From: Gammaproteobacteria bacterium
Lineage (GTDB): Bacteria; Pseudomonadota; Gammaproteobacteria; Enterobacterales; Kangiellaceae
DNA: 48,259 bases
NCBI GenBank assembly: GCA_013373375.1
Contig: JABXHY010000064.1
Span: 1-48,259, forward strand
Direction of reading: 5' to 3'
Below are positions 1 through 47,805 of this stretch, one piece after another. Numbering within the stretch: position 1 is the stretch's first letter; the number at the start of each line of letters is the position of its first letter. The notes below the pieces were generated by a model. It was not told the DNA's origin and ran no database searches. It was given only the letters and a program-made list of their open reading frames with translations. The translations under genes and the position numbers were made by a program.

Positions 1-1063
1 TACAGCTACACATGGGGCTTTTGGAGCGCTGGCGTTTGGCATAGGAACGTCAGAAGTTGAGCATGTATTGGCAACTCAAACATTACGCCAACGTAAGTCA
101 AAAAATATGCTGATTCGGTATTTGGGAATTCCTCCTAAAGGTGTGAGCGCAAAAGATGTGATACTTGCAACCATTGCGCACATTGGAACGGATGGTGGAT
201 CGGGCCACGCTATAGAGTTTGCGGGAGAGTTTGTTTCGAGTCTTTCAATGGAAGGACGCATGACGATTTGTAATATGGCGATAGAAGCTGGTGCGAGAGT
301 TGGATTAATCGCAGTCGACAAAACAACTGTCGACTATTTGCAAGGGCGTCCATTTGCGCCGCCATTGGATTATTGGGCGCAAGCCAGTGAGCATTGGTAT
401 TCATTAACCTCCGACGACGATGCACAATTCGATAAGGTCATTGAACTTGATGTTTCTAATTTCGAGCCTCAAATCAGTTGGGGCACTTCACCAGAAATGG
501 TCATCGGCGTTTCACAAACAATTCCTTCACCGCTAACTCACAATCAAAAAGTCAAACAGGATGGATTACAACGTGCTCAAGATTATATGGGGTTAAGTTC
601 AGACCAACCTTGGTATGAAGTCGCGTTAGATAAAATTTTTATTGGTTCCTGCACCAATTCAAGAATTGAAGATTTGCGCAATGCTGCGGAAATTGTAAAG
701 GGTAAAAAGGTATCTGCCACCATTAAACAAGCGTTGGTGGTTCCGGGCTCAGGATTGGTAAAACGACAAGCAGAAGCAGAAGGCCTGGATCAAGTCTTTG
801 TTAACGCAGGATTTGAATGGCGCGAACCAGGATGCTCAATGTGTTTGGCTATGAATGCTGACAAATTAAAACCGACAGAGCGTTGCGCTTCCACCTCCAA
901 CCGAAACTTTGAAGGGCGTCAAGGTCCTGGTGGACGAACGCATTTAGTGAGTCCTCAAATGGCAGCGGCTGCTGCATTGTTTGGGTATTTTGTTGACGTG
1001 CGAAAACTACAGTTTGACGAAACGACTAAAGAAAATAAAAATCAAAACAAGGAGGTGGCATAA
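1..1063 (+). CDS. leuC: 3-isopropylmalate dehydratase large subunit, 5' end outside window
   Basis: Isomerises 2-isopropylmalate to 3-isopropylmalate in leucine synthesis, together with LeuD; cytoplasmic 4Fe-4S enzyme. The reading frame is open from base 2 and begins with [20 protein letters not shown], which is LeuC sequence, so the gene runs off the left edge and the TTG at 68 is not the real start. About 353 of the usual ~470 residues are present. The three cluster cysteines are visible: GSCTNS (Cys codon at 650) and GCSMC (codons at 833 and 842). The stop overlaps the leuD start (TAATG), and a strong AAGGAGG ribosome binding site for leuD sits inside its last codons. Identification is certain; only the start is missing. 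Confidence 0.97.
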
Positions 1064-11902: not shown

Positions 11903-12529
11903 ATGAGCATGACGCCAAACGCAGAAAAAAATAAGCTAAAAATTGTACAGCGAGTTTTTAACCAGTTGTTTGAAACGACCTTAAATACTCGCCTGGAATT
12001 TGGTTTTGAAGAACCTTTTTATTTGGCGTCGAATCAAGAAGGCCGCTCGGTTATTCAGTCTCGATACGACTATTTATCCAGCGCCTTGCACGAAATTGCT
12101 CACTGGTGTATTGCTGGAGATGCTCGAAGAGAGGTGGACGACTACGGCTACTGGTACGAACCTGATGGTCGATCCGATCAGCAGCAAGCTTTATTCGAGA
12201 AGGTTGAAGTTGAACCTCAGGCGATGGAATGGATATTGTCCGCGTGTTGTCAGCACGAATTTAATTTTTCGGCCGATAATTTGGAGGGAGACGTTACCTT
12301 GTCTGAAGCGTTTACGGAGGCTGTGACTGCCAAAGTCGCAGAATTTTGGCAAGAGGGTTTATCAAAGCGATCAGACATGCTCGTAAGGGCATTAAGTGAG
12401 CAGTTTTATGATCGAGATTGCCAATTGCCGTTATCTTTAGACATAATTTATGCTTACTTGAAAGATTCAGCGCCGTTATCAAAATCCATTCTACAACTAT
12501 CATCAAATATCGAGGCAAAATTTGTTTAA
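11903..12529 (+). CDS. epmC: elongation factor P hydroxylase EpmC
   Basis: Hydroxylates the beta-lysylated lysine of EF-P, the last step of the EpmA/EpmB/EpmC pathway that helps ribosomes through proline stretches. Recognised by ALHEIAHWCIAGDARR (about residues 62-77, metal-binding HEIAH) and DYGYWYEPDGRSDQQQALFE, hallmarks of the YfcM family. 208 aa, slightly longer than E. coli YfcM. epmA, epmB and efp are not in the window. Its last 8 bases overlap the next gene. Confidence 0.92.
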   Translation: MSMTPNAEKNKLKIVQRVFNQLFETTLNTRLEFGFEEPFYLASNQEGRSVIQSRYDYLSSALHEIAHWCIAGDARREVDDYGYWYEPDGRSDQQQALFEKVEVEPQAMEWILSACCQHEFNFSADNLEGDVTLSEAFTEAVTAKVAEFWQEGLSKRSDMLVRALSEQFYDRDCQLPLSLDIIYAYLKDSAPLSKSILQLSSNIEAKFV

Positions 12530-13649
12530 ACTAGGTTTTCTCGTTAACCCTTATGCTGGTATTGGTGGGAGTGTCGCACTCAAAGGAAGTGATGGGGCTG
12601 AAATTCGTGAAGAAGCGTTGAAGCGAGGAGCAAAACTGCTTGCAGCAACAAAGGCTAAGATTGCTTTGAGTCAATTAAACGATAAGGCAAAAGAACAAAT
12701 TTGCCTGTATGTACCAAGCGGCCCTATGGGCGAAGATATTGCTCGAGAATTAGGTTTTGATTGCAAAATTATTGCGCATACCAATCAACCCAGCGAGTCT
12801 GATGATACCCGCTCGGCTGTTCAGGCGATGGAGCAACAAGGGGTCGATTTAATTTTATTTGCAGGGGGAGATGGTACTGCTCGAGATGTATTTGCAGTGT
12901 TAGAACAGGGTATTCCTGTTTTGGGTATTCCCGCAGGATGTAAAATTCACTCAGGCGTCTATGCCGTCACGCCAAAAGCAGCTGGTGTTTTAATCAGTCA
13001 ATTAGTAGATGGTCACTTGTTAAGTTTACGTGAAGCTTCGGTGATGGATATCGACGAGCAGGCATTTCGGCAAGGAGTAGTGAAAGCTCGTAATTTTGGC
13101 AGCATGACGGTGCCAGATTCTTTGCAATTTGTTCAAGCTACCAAGCAAGGAGGGCGAGAGGTTGAGTCCATGGTGCTCGACGATATTGCTGCAGACGTCG
13201 TCGAATATTTAGAACCTGACACCTATTACGCGATTGGCTCTGGTTCAACTTGTGCTCATATTATGGCCGAGCTTGGGTTGGATAATACCTTGCTTGGAGT
13301 CGATGTTATTAAAAACGGAGCACTTGTTTTACAGGATGTCACGGCGCAACAGTTGCTGGAATTAAGTGAAAAAGAACCGCTTGAAATTTTTATTACGTTA
13401 ATTGGTGGTCAGGGACATATTATTGGTCGCGGTAACCAACAGATTTCGGCTGACGTAATACGATCGGTTGGTTGGGAGCGCATTCATATTATAGCTACCA
13501 AGTCTAAATTAACTGCCCTTGAAGGCAGACCTCTCATAGTCGATTCTGGCGACTCCGATCTGGACGATGCTCTTGTTGGAACTAAGCGAGTAATCACCGG
13601 ATATCATGACTCTGTGATATATCGCGTTGGACTTGATTACGAATCTTAA
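12522..13649 (+). CDS. ATP-NAD/AcoX kinase family protein
   Basis: Member of the ATP-NAD kinase superfamily (COG3199 type), 375 aa, distinct from the housekeeping NadK of about 290 aa. Visible are LGFLVNPYAGIGGSVALKG at the N terminus, LILFAGGDGTARDVF (GGDGT nucleotide-binding motif, about residues 107-121) and GIPAGCKIHSGVYAVTPKAA. The substrate is unknown; an NAD or sugar/lipid kinase role is possible. It starts at a TTG that overlaps the epmC stop by 8 bases, with GAGG about 7 bases upstream, so expression is probably coupled to epmC. Confidence 0.82.
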   Translation: MFKLGFLVNPYAGIGGSVALKGSDGAEIREEALKRGAKLLAATKAKIALSQLNDKAKEQICLYVPSGPMGEDIARELGFDCKIIAHTNQPSESDDTRSAVQAMEQQGVDLILFAGGDGTARDVFAVLEQGIPVLGIPAGCKIHSGVYAVTPKAAGVLISQLVDGHLLSLREASVMDIDEQAFRQGVVKARNFGSMTVPDSLQFVQATKQGGREVESMVLDDIAADVVEYLEPDTYYAIGSGSTCAHIMAELGLDNTLLGVDVIKNGALVLQDVTAQQLLELSEKEPLEIFITLIGGQGHIIGRGNQQISADVIRSVGWERIHIIATKSKLTALEGRPLIVDSGDSDLDDALVGTKRVITGYHDSVIYRVGLDYES

Positions 13650-13812
13650 CTGCCAATCAAATAAGTTAGGTGTCTCGCCTGCGAGCTTGTGAGCATTGTC
13701 TCAACTGGTATAAAGTCATTGTGGGTAGTGCAAATAAGATAAAGCAATTTTGGCTTTGGATAAATTACCTAAGTATCTGTTTATATTGAGAAATGGGTCA
13801 ATTTTAAGAGTC

Positions 13813-13829
13813 TGTATGAAATTCATACA
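13813..13829. promoter_or_regulatory. 17-bp palindrome upstream of the small RNA, possible activator site
   Basis: TGTATGAA-A-TTCATACA is a perfect odd palindrome. It resembles the GacA/UvrY upstream activating sequence (TGTAAG-N6-CTTACA), but with T/A at the fifth arm position and one base shorter. Its centre is about 55 bases before the predicted start of the RNA, the distance typical for that activator. No strong -35 lies between, as expected for an activator-dependent promoter. Confidence 0.5.
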
Positions 13830-13862: not shown

Positions 13863-13870
13863 GGTATTCT
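13863..13870 (+). promoter_or_regulatory. -10 region for the small RNA
   Basis: TATTCT at 13865-13870 lies within TTGGTATTCT, an extended -10 pattern. It would start transcription near 13876-13878, at the base of the first hairpin. Confidence 0.5.
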
Positions 13871-13875
13871 GTATT

Positions 13876-14006
13876 TGTGTTCAGGGAGAACATATCACGG
13901 ATGAGAGCAAAGGATGCAAACCTTAGGGAAAGACGGAACGCTTGATTGAAAGGGATTGACCAAGCACTTTTGATATGAGCACAAGGCGGCAGGATGCCGC
14001 CTTTTT
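13876..14006 (+). ncRNA. probable CsrB/RsmZ-type CsrA-sequestering small RNA
   Basis: About 130 bases in the gap between two convergent genes, with its own -10 region and terminator. Seven GGA motifs occur (near 13884, 13899, 13911, 13925, 13935, 13950 and 13991). Most sit in loops: GTGTTC-AGGGA-GAACAT (6-7 bp stem, 13877-13893), TCA-CGGA-TGA, GCA-AAGGA-TGC, CTT-AGGGA-AAG, a GCTTG...CAAGC stem around AGGGATT, and the terminator loop in the context CAGGATG, the CsrB repeat consensus. Size and arrangement match RsmZ/RsmY/CsrB RNAs, which titrate the translational regulator CsrA/RsmA. The boundaries are predicted. No ORF explains this segment. CsrA itself is not in the window. Confidence 0.75.
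13983..14006 (+). terminator. rho-independent terminator of the small RNA
   Basis: AAGGCGGC-AGGAT-GCCGCCTT followed by a T run. The GC-rich perfect stem has a U tract only on the plus strand. It lies about 335 bases after the nearest plus-strand gene, which argues for a separate short transcript. Confidence 0.93.
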
Positions 14007-14038: not shown

Positions 14039-15904
14039 TCACCAGCCGCACTGTCTATTTTTGTTTTGCTCATCTAACCAAGTTTTTAAAGGCGCAAAAT
14101 AATCGAGCACTGCAGTAGCATCCATTTGGCCACTTCCTGTCATTGTTTCTAGAGCTTCCTGCCATGGACGACTTTGTCCCATCTCGAGCATTGCTTTTAG
14201 TTTTTCGCCAGCGGCTTTATTGTTGTAAATAGAACAACGGTGGAGAGGGCCCTGATGACCTGACAACTTACACAATTCGCGATGGAACTGAAACTGTAAT
14301 ACATGAGCCAAAAAGTAACGCGAGTAAGGCGTATTTCCTGGGATATGATATTTAGCGCCTGGATCAAAATCTGCTTCGGTTCTTGCAACAGGAGCTTTCA
14401 CGCCTTGATATTTTTCGCGTAACTGCCACCAACCTTGATTGTACTGATCTGGGCCTAGCTCGCCGCTGAACACTTTCCAACGCCATTGATCAACCATCAA
14501 TCCAAACGGTAGAAAGGCAATTTTATCCATTGCTGTTCGCATTAAAAACGGTAAATCACCAGAGGAATCCGGTTCAGATTCAATCAGTCCAATTTCTTTT
14601 AAATACTTAGGAGTAATCGATAAAGCGATGGTATCGCCAATGGCCTCATGAAAACCATCGTTAGCACTTCCGCGATATAGCATTGGCTGTGTCAGGTTGT
14701 AAGCGCGTTGATAGAAGTTGTGGCCTAATTCATGATGGATGGTTTTAAAGTCTTCTTCATTGACGTTAATGCACATCTTCATCCGATAATCTTCAGTGGT
14801 AATGTCCCATGCACTGGCGTGACATACCACATCTCTGTCTTGCGGCTTTACAAATTGCGAACGAGTCCAGAAAGTATCGGGTAGCGGTTTAAATCCCAGT
14901 GACGTGAAGAATCCTTCGGCTTGTCGCGTCATGCTGATGGCATCATACTTTTTCGCGGTTAACCGTTCAGTAACGTCGATACCTGAACCACCCTCAGGAG
15001 CCACTAACGGATATATGTTACCCCAAGACTGTGCCCACATATTACCTAAAAGGTGAGCTGGGATAGGTTCTTGGTTATTGACAACCTCATTACCGTATTT
15101 ATCGCTCAGCTTTGCTCGAACGTGACAATGCAAAGCCTCATATAAAGGTTTTACCTGACCCCATACACGATCCATTTCTGCTGCGAATTCATCAGGTGAC
15201 ATATCATAGTTTGACCGCCACATTGAACCTAGATCGGTGAAACCTAGGTCTTGCGCACCTTCGTTAGCGATTTCTACCAAGCGTTGATACAGAGGTTTCA
15301 TTTGCGGTGATACTTTTCGCCAGTCCGTCCAAGCTTTGAGAAGAGCTTGAGGATCATCCGACTCAGAAATCGTTTTTGATAGTTCTCCTAGGTCGTATTG
15401 AGCGCCATCTTCTGTTCTTCCTGAACCGTACATTCCGGTGAGCTGACTTTCTATGGAGGCGAGTTCTGCGGCTTTTTGCGGCTGATTCGCTGGTGCTGGC
15501 AAGGTTAGCTTCAAGCGTAATAATTTTAATTTACGCTCAACATCGTAGGGTAGGTCGAGTCCATTAAATTTTGCCGCTTGATTCGCGAGCTCTATACCGA
15601 GCAATTTTGATTCTTTGTTTGCTTTTGACTCTAAATATTGTGAATCGACACTAATATAGGTTTGAGCAATCCACGCTGATTTCGATAAGTACTCATAAAT
15701 GTCATCAATTTGCTGTTCAGCCTTTGTCACGAACTCTTTCGCATCTTGAACACTAGGAGCTGAATTAACTGGTGGCAAAGGTGATGGTTTATCGTTCGAA
15801 GAAGGGGCGTTCTGCTCGCAACCGATTACCAGCAAACTTGCGATAATGGCAGCGTAGCTGGACTTCAAAAATTTTGTATTAAAGTTGTTATGTTTGTTAG
15901 ACAT
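14039..15904 (-). CDS. M2 family (ACE-like) dipeptidyl carboxypeptidase lipoprotein
   Basis: Zinc metallopeptidase related to angiotensin-converting enzyme, 621 aa. The N terminus has a basic start, a hydrophobic stretch and a lipobox ending VIGC (Cys about residue 29), followed by a Pro/Ser-rich linker, so it should be a periplasmic, probably outer-membrane-anchored lipoprotein. The zinc site is TIHHELGHNFYQRAY (HELGH), with the third ligand in FHEAIGDTIALS downstream. HIPGNTPYSRYFLAHVLQFQ near the C terminus matches the chloride- and substrate-binding region of ACE homologues. It probably trims dipeptides from peptides. It stands alone, ending against the small RNA terminator. Confidence 0.93.
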   Translation of the reverse strand: MSNKHNNFNTKFLKSSYAAIIASLLVIGCEQNAPSSNDKPSPLPPVNSAPSVQDAKEFVTKAEQQIDDIYEYLSKSAWIAQTYISVDSQYLESKANKESKLLGIELANQAAKFNGLDLPYDVERKLKLLRLKLTLPAPANQPQKAAELASIESQLTGMYGSGRTEDGAQYDLGELSKTISESDDPQALLKAWTDWRKVSPQMKPLYQRLVEIANEGAQDLGFTDLGSMWRSNYDMSPDEFAAEMDRVWGQVKPLYEALHCHVRAKLSDKYGNEVVNNQEPIPAHLLGNMWAQSWGNIYPLVAPEGGSGIDVTERLTAKKYDAISMTRQAEGFFTSLGFKPLPDTFWTRSQFVKPQDRDVVCHASAWDITTEDYRMKMCINVNEEDFKTIHHELGHNFYQRAYNLTQPMLYRGSANDGFHEAIGDTIALSITPKYLKEIGLIESEPDSSGDLPFLMRTAMDKIAFLPFGLMVDQWRWKVFSGELGPDQYNQGWWQLREKYQGVKAPVARTEADFDPGAKYHIPGNTPYSRYFLAHVLQFQFHRELCKLSGHQGPLHRCSIYNNKAAGEKLKAMLEMGQSRPWQEALETMTGSGQMDATAVLDYFAPLKTWLDEQNKNRQCGW

Positions 15905-46359: not shown

Positions 46360-47805
46360 TTAAACAATCGCGCCTACCTTTAATATTTTCATCGCATTAG
46401 TACTGCCTAAAATTCCCATATTGTCTCCTTTGGTGAGAAGTACCAGATCACCGTCTTCAACAATATTTCTTTTTTTCAATTCCTCGACCGCTAGTCGATT
46501 AATATCGTGTCGAGCCAATTTTTTAGGTTCAAATGGAATTGCTTCTACACCACGGTATAATGCTAATCTTCGTTGCGTATCGACTCGAGGACTTAACGCA
46601 TAAATTGGCATTCCAGAACGAATTCTCGACATCCATAAAGCGGTTGCTCCAGATTCCGTTAAACAACAAATTGCTTTAACGCCTTTTAAGTGGTTGGCCG
46701 TATACATAGTTGCCATCGCAATCGCTTCATCAATTCTTTCGAATTGATCATCCATACGGTGTTTCGAAATTCGAGTAACTTTATGTTTTTCTGCTCCCTG
46801 GCAAACACGAGCCATGGCTTCAACAACTTTAATGGGATGTTCACCGGTTGCAGTTTCTGCTGACAGCATTACCGCATCGGTTCCATCGAGCACAGCGTTT
46901 GCCACATCAAAAACTTCAGCTCGAGTTGGAATTGGATTGGTGATCATGGACTCCATCATTTGAGTTGCGGTTATCACAACTCTATCAAGCGTTCGAGCCC
47001 GAGCAATAATCCGTTTTTGAACGCCAATCAATTCGGCATCCCCAATTTCGACTCCTAGATCGCCACGGGCAACCATGACTGCATCCGAGGCCATTATAAT
47101 TTCATCCAAGACTTTTTCTGAGTCAACAACCTCTGCGCGTTCAATCTTGGCAACCAGTCCTGCGTTACTTCCAGCTTCCCTTAATAGTTTTTTTGCGCGA
47201 TTCATGTCGTCAGCACTTCGTGGGAACGAAACTGCTAAATAATCAACGCCCATACTCGCAGCTAATTTAATATCACGCTCGTCTTTAGCGGTTAATGCTG
47301 GAGCAGACAGGCCACCACCTTTTTTGTTGATACCTTTATTATTGCTTAGCTTTCCACCAAGAATAACTTTGGTGAAAACTTTAGCTTGTTCAATTTTGGT
47401 TACTTCAAGTTCCAAGCGTCCATCATCGAGTAATAATCGATCTCCAGTTTCACAATCTTTTGGAAGTTCTTTATAGTCGATCCCGACAGAGGCTTCAGTA
47501 CCGGACTCCGTGTCCTGTTCTGCATCCAAAATAAACTCTTCGCCATTTTTTAGAATTACGGTACCATCTTTAAAGCGAGCAATTCTTATTTTTGGACCTT
47601 GCAAGTCACCAAGAATCGCAACTTCAATTCCCATTTTTTTCGATACTTCTCTAACACGTTCAGTACGCATTACATGATCGTCGGCATTGCCGTGAGAGAA
47701 GTTCATTCGAACAACATTCGCACCAGCATTGAATAATTGTTCTAATGCAGTTGCGTTATCCGTCGCTGGGCCAAGTGTGGTGACAATTTTTGTACGTTTG
47801 AACAC
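46360..47805 (-). CDS. pykA: pyruvate kinase (PykA type)
   Basis: Converts phosphoenolpyruvate and ADP to pyruvate and ATP. 481 aa, closest to E. coli PykA (480 aa) in reading. [20 protein letters not shown] and [10 protein letters not shown] at the N terminus, [27 protein letters not shown] (catalytic Lys), [14 protein letters not shown] and [20 protein letters not shown] are all intact. It begins at GTG 47803-47805 with AGGAA 9 bases upstream. It should supply pyruvate for the nearby E1/E2 genes if those are pyruvate-specific. Confidence 0.96.

Follow-up and report, generated by a model that had tools for sequence, protein, structure and literature searches.

The RNA encoded at positions 13,876 to 14,006 of the forward strand of the window, the 48,259-nucleotide stretch of DNA analysed here, is very probably a genuine small RNA and a sponge for CsrA, to which it is predicted to bind. 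Just 5′ of its terminator, it carries a block complementary to the csrA leader, and complementarity of this kind recurs with different sequences in related genera, which suggests that the RNA may catch both the CsrA protein and the csrA message. On these comparisons, we consider it quite likely that the locus encodes a small RNA, switched by UvrY/GacA, whose action on CsrA is twofold: titration of the protein and pairing with the csrA mRNA. The features of the window on which the argument draws are the following:

12,522 to 13,649, forward strand: upstream gene of the ATP-NAD kinase family (PF01513, 82.1 bits; PF20143, 56 bits)
13,688 to 13,705, forward strand: UvrY/GacA-box-like sequence TGTGAGCATTGTCTCAAC, centred about 176 to 180 bases before the 5′ end of the RNA
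13,865 to 13,870, forward strand: candidate −10 element TATTCT, read from the sequence and absent from the output of a simple promoter scan
13,876 to 14,006, forward strand: very probable Csr/Rsm-type sponge RNA with seven GGA (motif count, fold, terminator, relatives)
13,876 to 13,894, forward strand: first hairpin TGTGTTC-AGGGA-GAACATA, with loop AGGGA (sequence, alignment)
13,963 to 13,979, forward strand: csrA-antisense block AGCACTTTTGATATGAG, predicted from complementarity to pair with the csrA leader sequence CTCATATCAAGTGCT with a 2-nt bulge
13,983 to 14,003, forward strand: intrinsic terminator of nine pairs with GGA in its loop, reported on this strand only
14,039 to 15,904, reverse strand: convergent downstream gene of the M2 peptidase family (PF01401, 720 bits)
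174 to 315, forward strand: another place with seven GGA, within an open frame
47,397 to 47,541, reverse strand: another place with seven GGA (GGA window count)

The RNA starts about 226 bases past the end of the upstream gene at 13,649. An earlier sequence-only reading had described seven GGA motifs in about 130 bases, and the count is indeed seven in 131 bases of the forward strand (at 13,885, 13,899, 13,912, 13,927, 13,935, 13,953 and 13,992), with none on the opposite strand across 13,876 to 14,006. Counting both strands of the 48-kb stretch, 49 of the 96,256 windows of this length contain at least seven GGA, and they fall in three places, including the sponge RNA. The first hairpin with its AGGGA loop and the terminator with a GGA loop and a U tract on one strand were also read correctly, the terminator beginning 334 bases after 13,649 where about 335 had been stated. 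The same reading placed most of the GGA motifs in hairpin loops, which overstates the case: only three of the seven (13,885, 13,953 and 13,992) are so located in the minimum-energy fold; of the other four, one falls within an interior loop and three have some or all of their bases paired. The folding energy of the sponge RNA is low relative to shuffled sequences (z = −2.31; 3 of 200 shuffles equally good), and the opposite strand folds well too (z = −3.17), the terminator stem being common to both strands. The terminator is identical across four aligned genus members, and its loop GGA is altered in G001.

Rfam matches in the window are limited to two tRNAs, and none of CsrB, CsrC, RsmX and RsmY, which we take to be the names of Rfam Csr/Rsm families, nor PrrB_RsmZ, reaches its gathering cut-off here. 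The Rfam search, proposed earlier as a check, thus yielded no family at cut-off, the best full-length score being that of PrrB_RsmZ (RF00166; 18.2 bits against a cut-off of 44, positions 1 to 133, E 0.041 for 401 bases searched). A whole-genome search of the own genome (G000) with RF00166 gave no match at E ≤0.001, and a further 20 loci likewise gave no Rfam match; the RNA is present in 19 of these, among them L171, which is the copy from the window itself, and absent from L173. RF00195 (RsmY) found two weak places in the own genome and was set aside, two control genomes having given matches too. CsrB and CsrC of E. coli and RsmY and RsmZ of Pseudomonas are likewise GGA-repeat RNAs with a terminator; unlike them, the sponge RNA described here falls below every Rfam cut-off. 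What is expected of a sponge RNA is nonetheless found: many GGA motifs, three of them in hairpin loops, a conserved stem bearing a GGA loop, a UvrY/GacA box recognised by sequence together with the regulator gene, and a cognate CsrA in the genome.

Conservation of the first hairpin was assessed on 11 distinct sequences chosen from g1 (the own genus, five genomes, G000 to G004), g6 and part of g5; the alignment leaves out another part of g5, g3, g4 and G005, whose 5′ hairpins look different. Within this set, 87% of cells are paired, and changes on both sides occur in four of the seven stem pairs, a number reached by 2 of 500 shuffles. None of 500 shuffles attains the covariation score, nor does any slid version; 53 of 500 shuffles attain the number of further pair types. 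Seven of the 11 sequences have a broken outermost pair, and three pairs are replaced in G009 alone. Stem conservation with compensatory changes in relatives, which had also been proposed as a check, therefore came out favourably, and together with the UvrY/GacA-type box and the presence of csrA and uvrY/gacA genes, it supports the original reading of a CsrB/RsmZ-type RNA.

The box-like sequence TGTGAGCATTGTCTCAAC is the best match to TGTAAGN6CTTACA in the 330 upstream bases, with 10 of 12 positions, a level reached by 5% of base shuffles; across the 48-kb window alone, matches of this type are not rarer than chance. A box-like match with 9 to 12 of 12 positions lies upstream in all 30 genomes scored, its centre at −169 to −181 from the estimated RNA start in 22 of them and at −185 to −207 in the other eight, three of which use a default start estimate. 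The base-shuffle frequency is at most 0.05 in 29 of the 30 genomes and 0.245 in G004. The csrB gene of E. coli similarly has its UvrY box far upstream (TGTGAGAGATCTCTTACA, at −183/−182, as given in PMC4682653). In the own genome, CsrA is matched once (119.6 bits against a cut-off of 73), and UvrY/GacA is matched once above its cut-off (345 versus 280 bits). Another upstream sequence, the perfect 17-base palindrome TGTATGAAATTCATACA at 13,813 to 13,829, about 55 bases 5′ of the RNA start, was rejected as a GacA box since it has 17 and not 18 positions; it was also not seen by eye upstream in G002, G003 and G004, and was dropped in favour of 13,688 to 13,705.

The own genus is called Pleionea here on the strength of its csrA leaders: G001 has a leader identical to that of P. 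sediminis, and G002 one identical to that of P. mediterranea. The leader of G009 is identical to that of Pleionea sp. CnH1-48. A DNA search of 149 genomes, the own included, gave matches in 13 at E ≤0.01, namely the own genome, the four other genus members over the RNA (spanning only 56 bases in G001), and eight others by stretches of 25 to 32 bases. A model built from four RNA sequences recovered all five genus members at E ≤1.2e-10 and G009 at 1.1e-5. Some of its weaker matches, which occur in 24 of 40 genomes, fall on the RNA at this locus (as in G031, E 0.0015), and others do not. Among them, the match in G005 (E 6.2e-4) was rejected as lying within apparent coding sequence, so that model matches near E 0.001 are unreliable alone; a weak match in the own genome (L126) begins within the final part of a long open frame and was treated as chance. 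The RNA is present in all five Pleionea genomes, with seven or eight GGA in four of them and as a 332-nt version with 21 GGA in G001, which retains a similar first hairpin and 3′ end.

The ATP-NAD kinase-family gene, matched in 40 of 40 family genomes, served as a locus marker in relatives, whose RNA was sought up to 1.5 kb downstream of it. A GGA-rich RNA was found there in G000, G003, G004, G009 and G005, in six of seven g3 genomes (in G025, the contig stops at this point), in two of the six g4 genomes, and in all 20 genomes of g5, which is probably Kangiella; the g5 count includes G015, which falls below the density count and was identified by direct reading. In G020 (g4), the RNA lies beside a second, partial kinase match, and in G001 and G002, it is sited away from the kinase gene. 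No GGA-rich RNA was found within 1.5 kb downstream of the kinase gene in G007, G011, G014 and G017 (g4).

In the five Pleionea genomes, the sequence CTCATATCAAGTGCTG lies upstream of csrA, directly after a −10-like TATAAT, and its 15-mer CTCATATCAAGTGCT has one exact copy per genome, at the csrA leader, in all five. The complementary block of the RNA is located just 5′ of the terminator; it reads AGCACTTTTGATATGAG in G000 and G003 and AGCACTTTCGATATGAG in G004, with a 2-nt bulge, and AGCATTTGGTATGAG in G002 and AGTATTTGATATGAG in G001, with no bulge. The blocks of G001 and G002 each show two departures from the perfect complement, and all four are G-U pairs. With up to two mismatches, CTCATATCAAGTGCT occurs at 4 to 13 places per genome versus 2 to 4 for the reversed control in these five genomes.

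In g5, the orthologous RNA and the csrA leader both differ from those of Pleionea, yet they are complementary to each other. The g5 block, ACTATCTACAAAT, ATCTACTACAA or TTCTACTACTAC, directly follows the first hairpin (RNA examples CACTATCTACAAATCGA and CACTATCTACTACAA; leader examples ATTTGTAGATAGT and TTTGTAGTAGATA), and the longest exact complement is 9 to 15 nt in all 20 genomes, reaching at least 11 in 19 and 9 in G026. A third, different sequence in G019 (g3) provides 13 nt of complement to its own csrA leader. Target complementarity is thus kept while sequences change in Pleionea, g5 and G019, as expected of a trans-acting RNA. Two g5 features are recorded separately. G029 (L022) and G031 (L029) have two neighbouring csrA genes with the RNA complement kept in each leader (10 to 14 nt; 10 to 11 nt in the second leader), and several leaders (L020, L032 to L036) contain repeated TTTGTAG/GTAGTAG units that offer multiple possible pairing sites, near the ribosome site in some genomes.

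Considered one genome at a time, the pairing energies are unremarkable. The G000 duplex between block and csrA (−19.9 kcal/mol) is weaker than those of at least 11 overlapping windows spread over five other places, among 9,032 windows covering 114 kb of the own genome with the RNA's own antisense strand left out, part of the 114 kb being loci chosen for motif resemblance. Of 60 shuffled leaders, the number matching the duplex scan was 3 in G000, 5 in G001, 0 in G002, 2 in G003, 0 in G004 and 15 in G009; in six g5 genomes, it was 0 of 40 in three and 3 to 7 of 40 in the other three. The predicted openness of the block is 0.33 to 0.50 in five Pleionea RNAs and 0.25 to 0.86 in eight g5 RNAs. Because single-genome energies are unremarkable, one genome is unconvincing, and it is the recurrence across genera with different sequences that convinces.

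This recurrence was evaluated by exact-run and short-window statistics, whole-RNA duplex folding having given long, unnatural pairings. With 300 shuffled leaders for each of 32 RNA-leader pairs, none reached the observed run in 18 pairs, and the frequency was 0.007 to 0.04 in seven further pairs, four of them from Pleionea. It exceeded 0.05 in G002 (7 nt), G009, G026 (9 nt), G006, G013, G016 and G022; the exact-run statistic ignores bulges and G-U pairs and hence undercounts G002. In the sense orientation, used as a control, runs are 6 to 9 nt. Among 31 genomes, a set that leaves out G010, G020 and G023 (examined separately), 26 own RNA-leader pairs reach 9 nt (G013 in, G002 out) and 19 reach 12, versus a mean of 6.5 nt for 510 between-genus swaps, of which 13 reach at least 9, one reaches at least 10 (11 nt) and none reaches 12. 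The sum over own pairs is reached by none of 20,000 permutations; as the test makes no correction for kinship within genera, its weight is that of about three independent seeds and not of 31 genomes. Thirteen other GGA-rich RNAs, six from between dapB and carA and seven from RF00166 places, give 5 to 7 nt against csrA leaders, and E. coli CsrB and CsrC give 7 to 8 nt. Of the 13 places given by the RF00166 search, eight were used in this control (L051, which belongs to the dapB-carA set, L048 to L050, L052, L053, L055 and L057); L047, with no csrA to compare, and L054, L056, L058 and L059, with 0 to 3 GGA, were left out.

In several relatives, the RNA is present and no convincing csrA complement was found: G009 (7 nt), G006, G013, G016 and G022 (four of the five g3 genomes compared; 7 to 9 nt), G020 (8 nt), and G023 (9 nt, AT-rich, with a doubtful csrA leader). 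G010 has 5 to 6 nt in the RNA sequence outside a run of N, and no csrA was found in G005. The csrA leader of G009 (L043/L107) retains CATCAAGTGCTG, and its RNA at the kinase locus lacks the complement; a partner sought by a guessed pattern was discarded, the pattern having at least 144 places at one mismatch or fewer and the G009 RNA having no such block. In g3 and g4, csrA leaders (L038, L042, L045, L046, L201 to L205) have GGA in apparent 5′-proximal hairpins, an arrangement that would fit control of csrA by CsrA itself in place of RNA pairing.

An ordinary Csr/Rsm sponge, whose csrA complementarity would be due to chance or without function, is the alternative that survives best, and we regard it as unlikely. 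It would account for the unremarkable single-genome energies, for the seven other RNA-bearing relatives that lack the complement, and for its absence from E. coli CsrB and CsrC; it does not account for three different sequences in different places, each antisense to a csrA leader, nor for complementarity in 20 of 20 g5 genomes and a permutation result of 0 in 20,000. Much less probable still is that a single regulator recognises the shared sequence as a DNA operator, located in the promoter of csrA and, in inverted form, in the gene for the RNA. The Pleionea csrA sites do directly follow a −10-like sequence, and G009 retains the csrA sequence without an RNA partner, as an operator would allow; against this, all three seeds are in inverted orientation, both the sequence and its position differ from genus to genus, and pairing is preserved by G-U at all four changed positions in G001 and G002. 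Nor is the sequence widespread, given its single exact copy per genus genome. The g5 motif has 52 places in 20 genomes (1 to 5 in 19 and none in G021) versus 39 for the reversed control, and the 30 loci examined comprise 5 csrA leaders, 5 RNAs, 19 sites inside open frames and 1 other gap; it is not a dispersed element. That there is no transcript, and that the locus is a terminator next to a GGA-rich spacer, is hardly credible: a simple promoter scan reports no promoter for the RNA on the forward strand, but the hairpin is conserved with compensatory changes, the box lies at a similar distance, and orthologs extend through the family.

A fuller reading, which we consider fairly probable, is a two-layer CsrA switch in which a UvrY-driven RNA removes CsrA through its GGA motifs and at once captures the 5′ end of the csrA mRNA, selection having preserved the pairing even as its sequence and its position in the RNA were replaced at least twice in the family. 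In this mechanism, UvrY would drive the RNA; the GGA motifs would bind and titrate the CsrA protein, as suggested by the anatomy, the conserved stem, the box and the presence of csrA and uvrY; and the 15-nt block beside the terminator would pair with about the first 20 nt of the csrA mRNA, whose start points are guesses from −10-like sequences, as suggested by the recurrent complementarity. We lean towards a pairing that lowers csrA output, so that CsrA synthesis would stop during titration, the sign of this effect being a guess. In Pleionea and most g5 genomes, the csrA site lies about 40 to 70 nt upstream of the start codon, beyond the usual footprint of the ribosome, which makes an effect on mRNA stability or a meeting of CsrA with the sponge more likely than a direct ribosome block. 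In five g5 genomes (G012, G015, G018, G021 and G033), the longest match is nearer the start codon.

Csr sponge RNAs such as CsrB are chiefly viewed as protein traps. A similar view of CsrB-type sponges is found in PMC10729762, which also provides a precedent in E. coli McaS, a single RNA that sequesters CsrA and base-pairs with mRNAs. The targets named there for McaS are csgD and flhD, whereas the target proposed here is the titrated protein's own message. In P. aeruginosa, the small RNA SrbA has been reported to reduce the expression of rsmA, and its pairing is predicted near the ribosome site; the available text of PMC12203948 does not describe it as a GGA sponge, and the pairing proposed here lies near the 5′ end. 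In Pseudoalteromonas fuliginea, according to PMC11882849, Pf1 to Pf3 are Csr sponges, and the csrA mRNA is a predicted target of a distinct antisense RNA, sRNA0654; these are two separate RNAs, whereas here, the sponge itself bears the csrA complement and is encoded away from csrA. No case in which a GGA sponge pairs with csrA or rsmA mRNA was found among the open-licence papers searched, including the accessible parts of PMC11882849, PMC10729762, PMC11332353 and PMC12203948. The csrA-antisense block distinguishes this sponge RNA from E. coli CsrB and CsrC, the two with which it was compared. If true, the proposed mechanism would provide a direct RNA link between a sponge and the supply of its target and would alter models of Csr feedback; the idea is testable, since natural partner pairs with different seeds occur in culturable marine bacteria.

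The sequence-only reading had further supposed that a Csr/Rsm switch is controlled from this locus, which is too strong, as the genome has at least two such RNAs; it made no mention of the second RNA, the UvrY/GacA-type box or the csrA-antisense block. The second GGA-rich RNA of the own genome (contig C22, about 50,803 to 51,311; L165, L169) has seven GGA in 123 nt and lies between two genes that, on reading their proteins, we presume to be dapB and carA. It is found between them in all six genomes examined; the copy in G002 has 14 GGA in 202 nt and that in G001 has 21 in 266 nt, and none of the six copies shows csrA complementarity. A similar upstream box is seen by eye. In G010, the ortholog downstream of the kinase gene (L181) contains head-to-tail copies of a GGA-bearing unit, with the run of N inside, an arrangement that, as read from the sequence, is sponge growth by tandem duplication.
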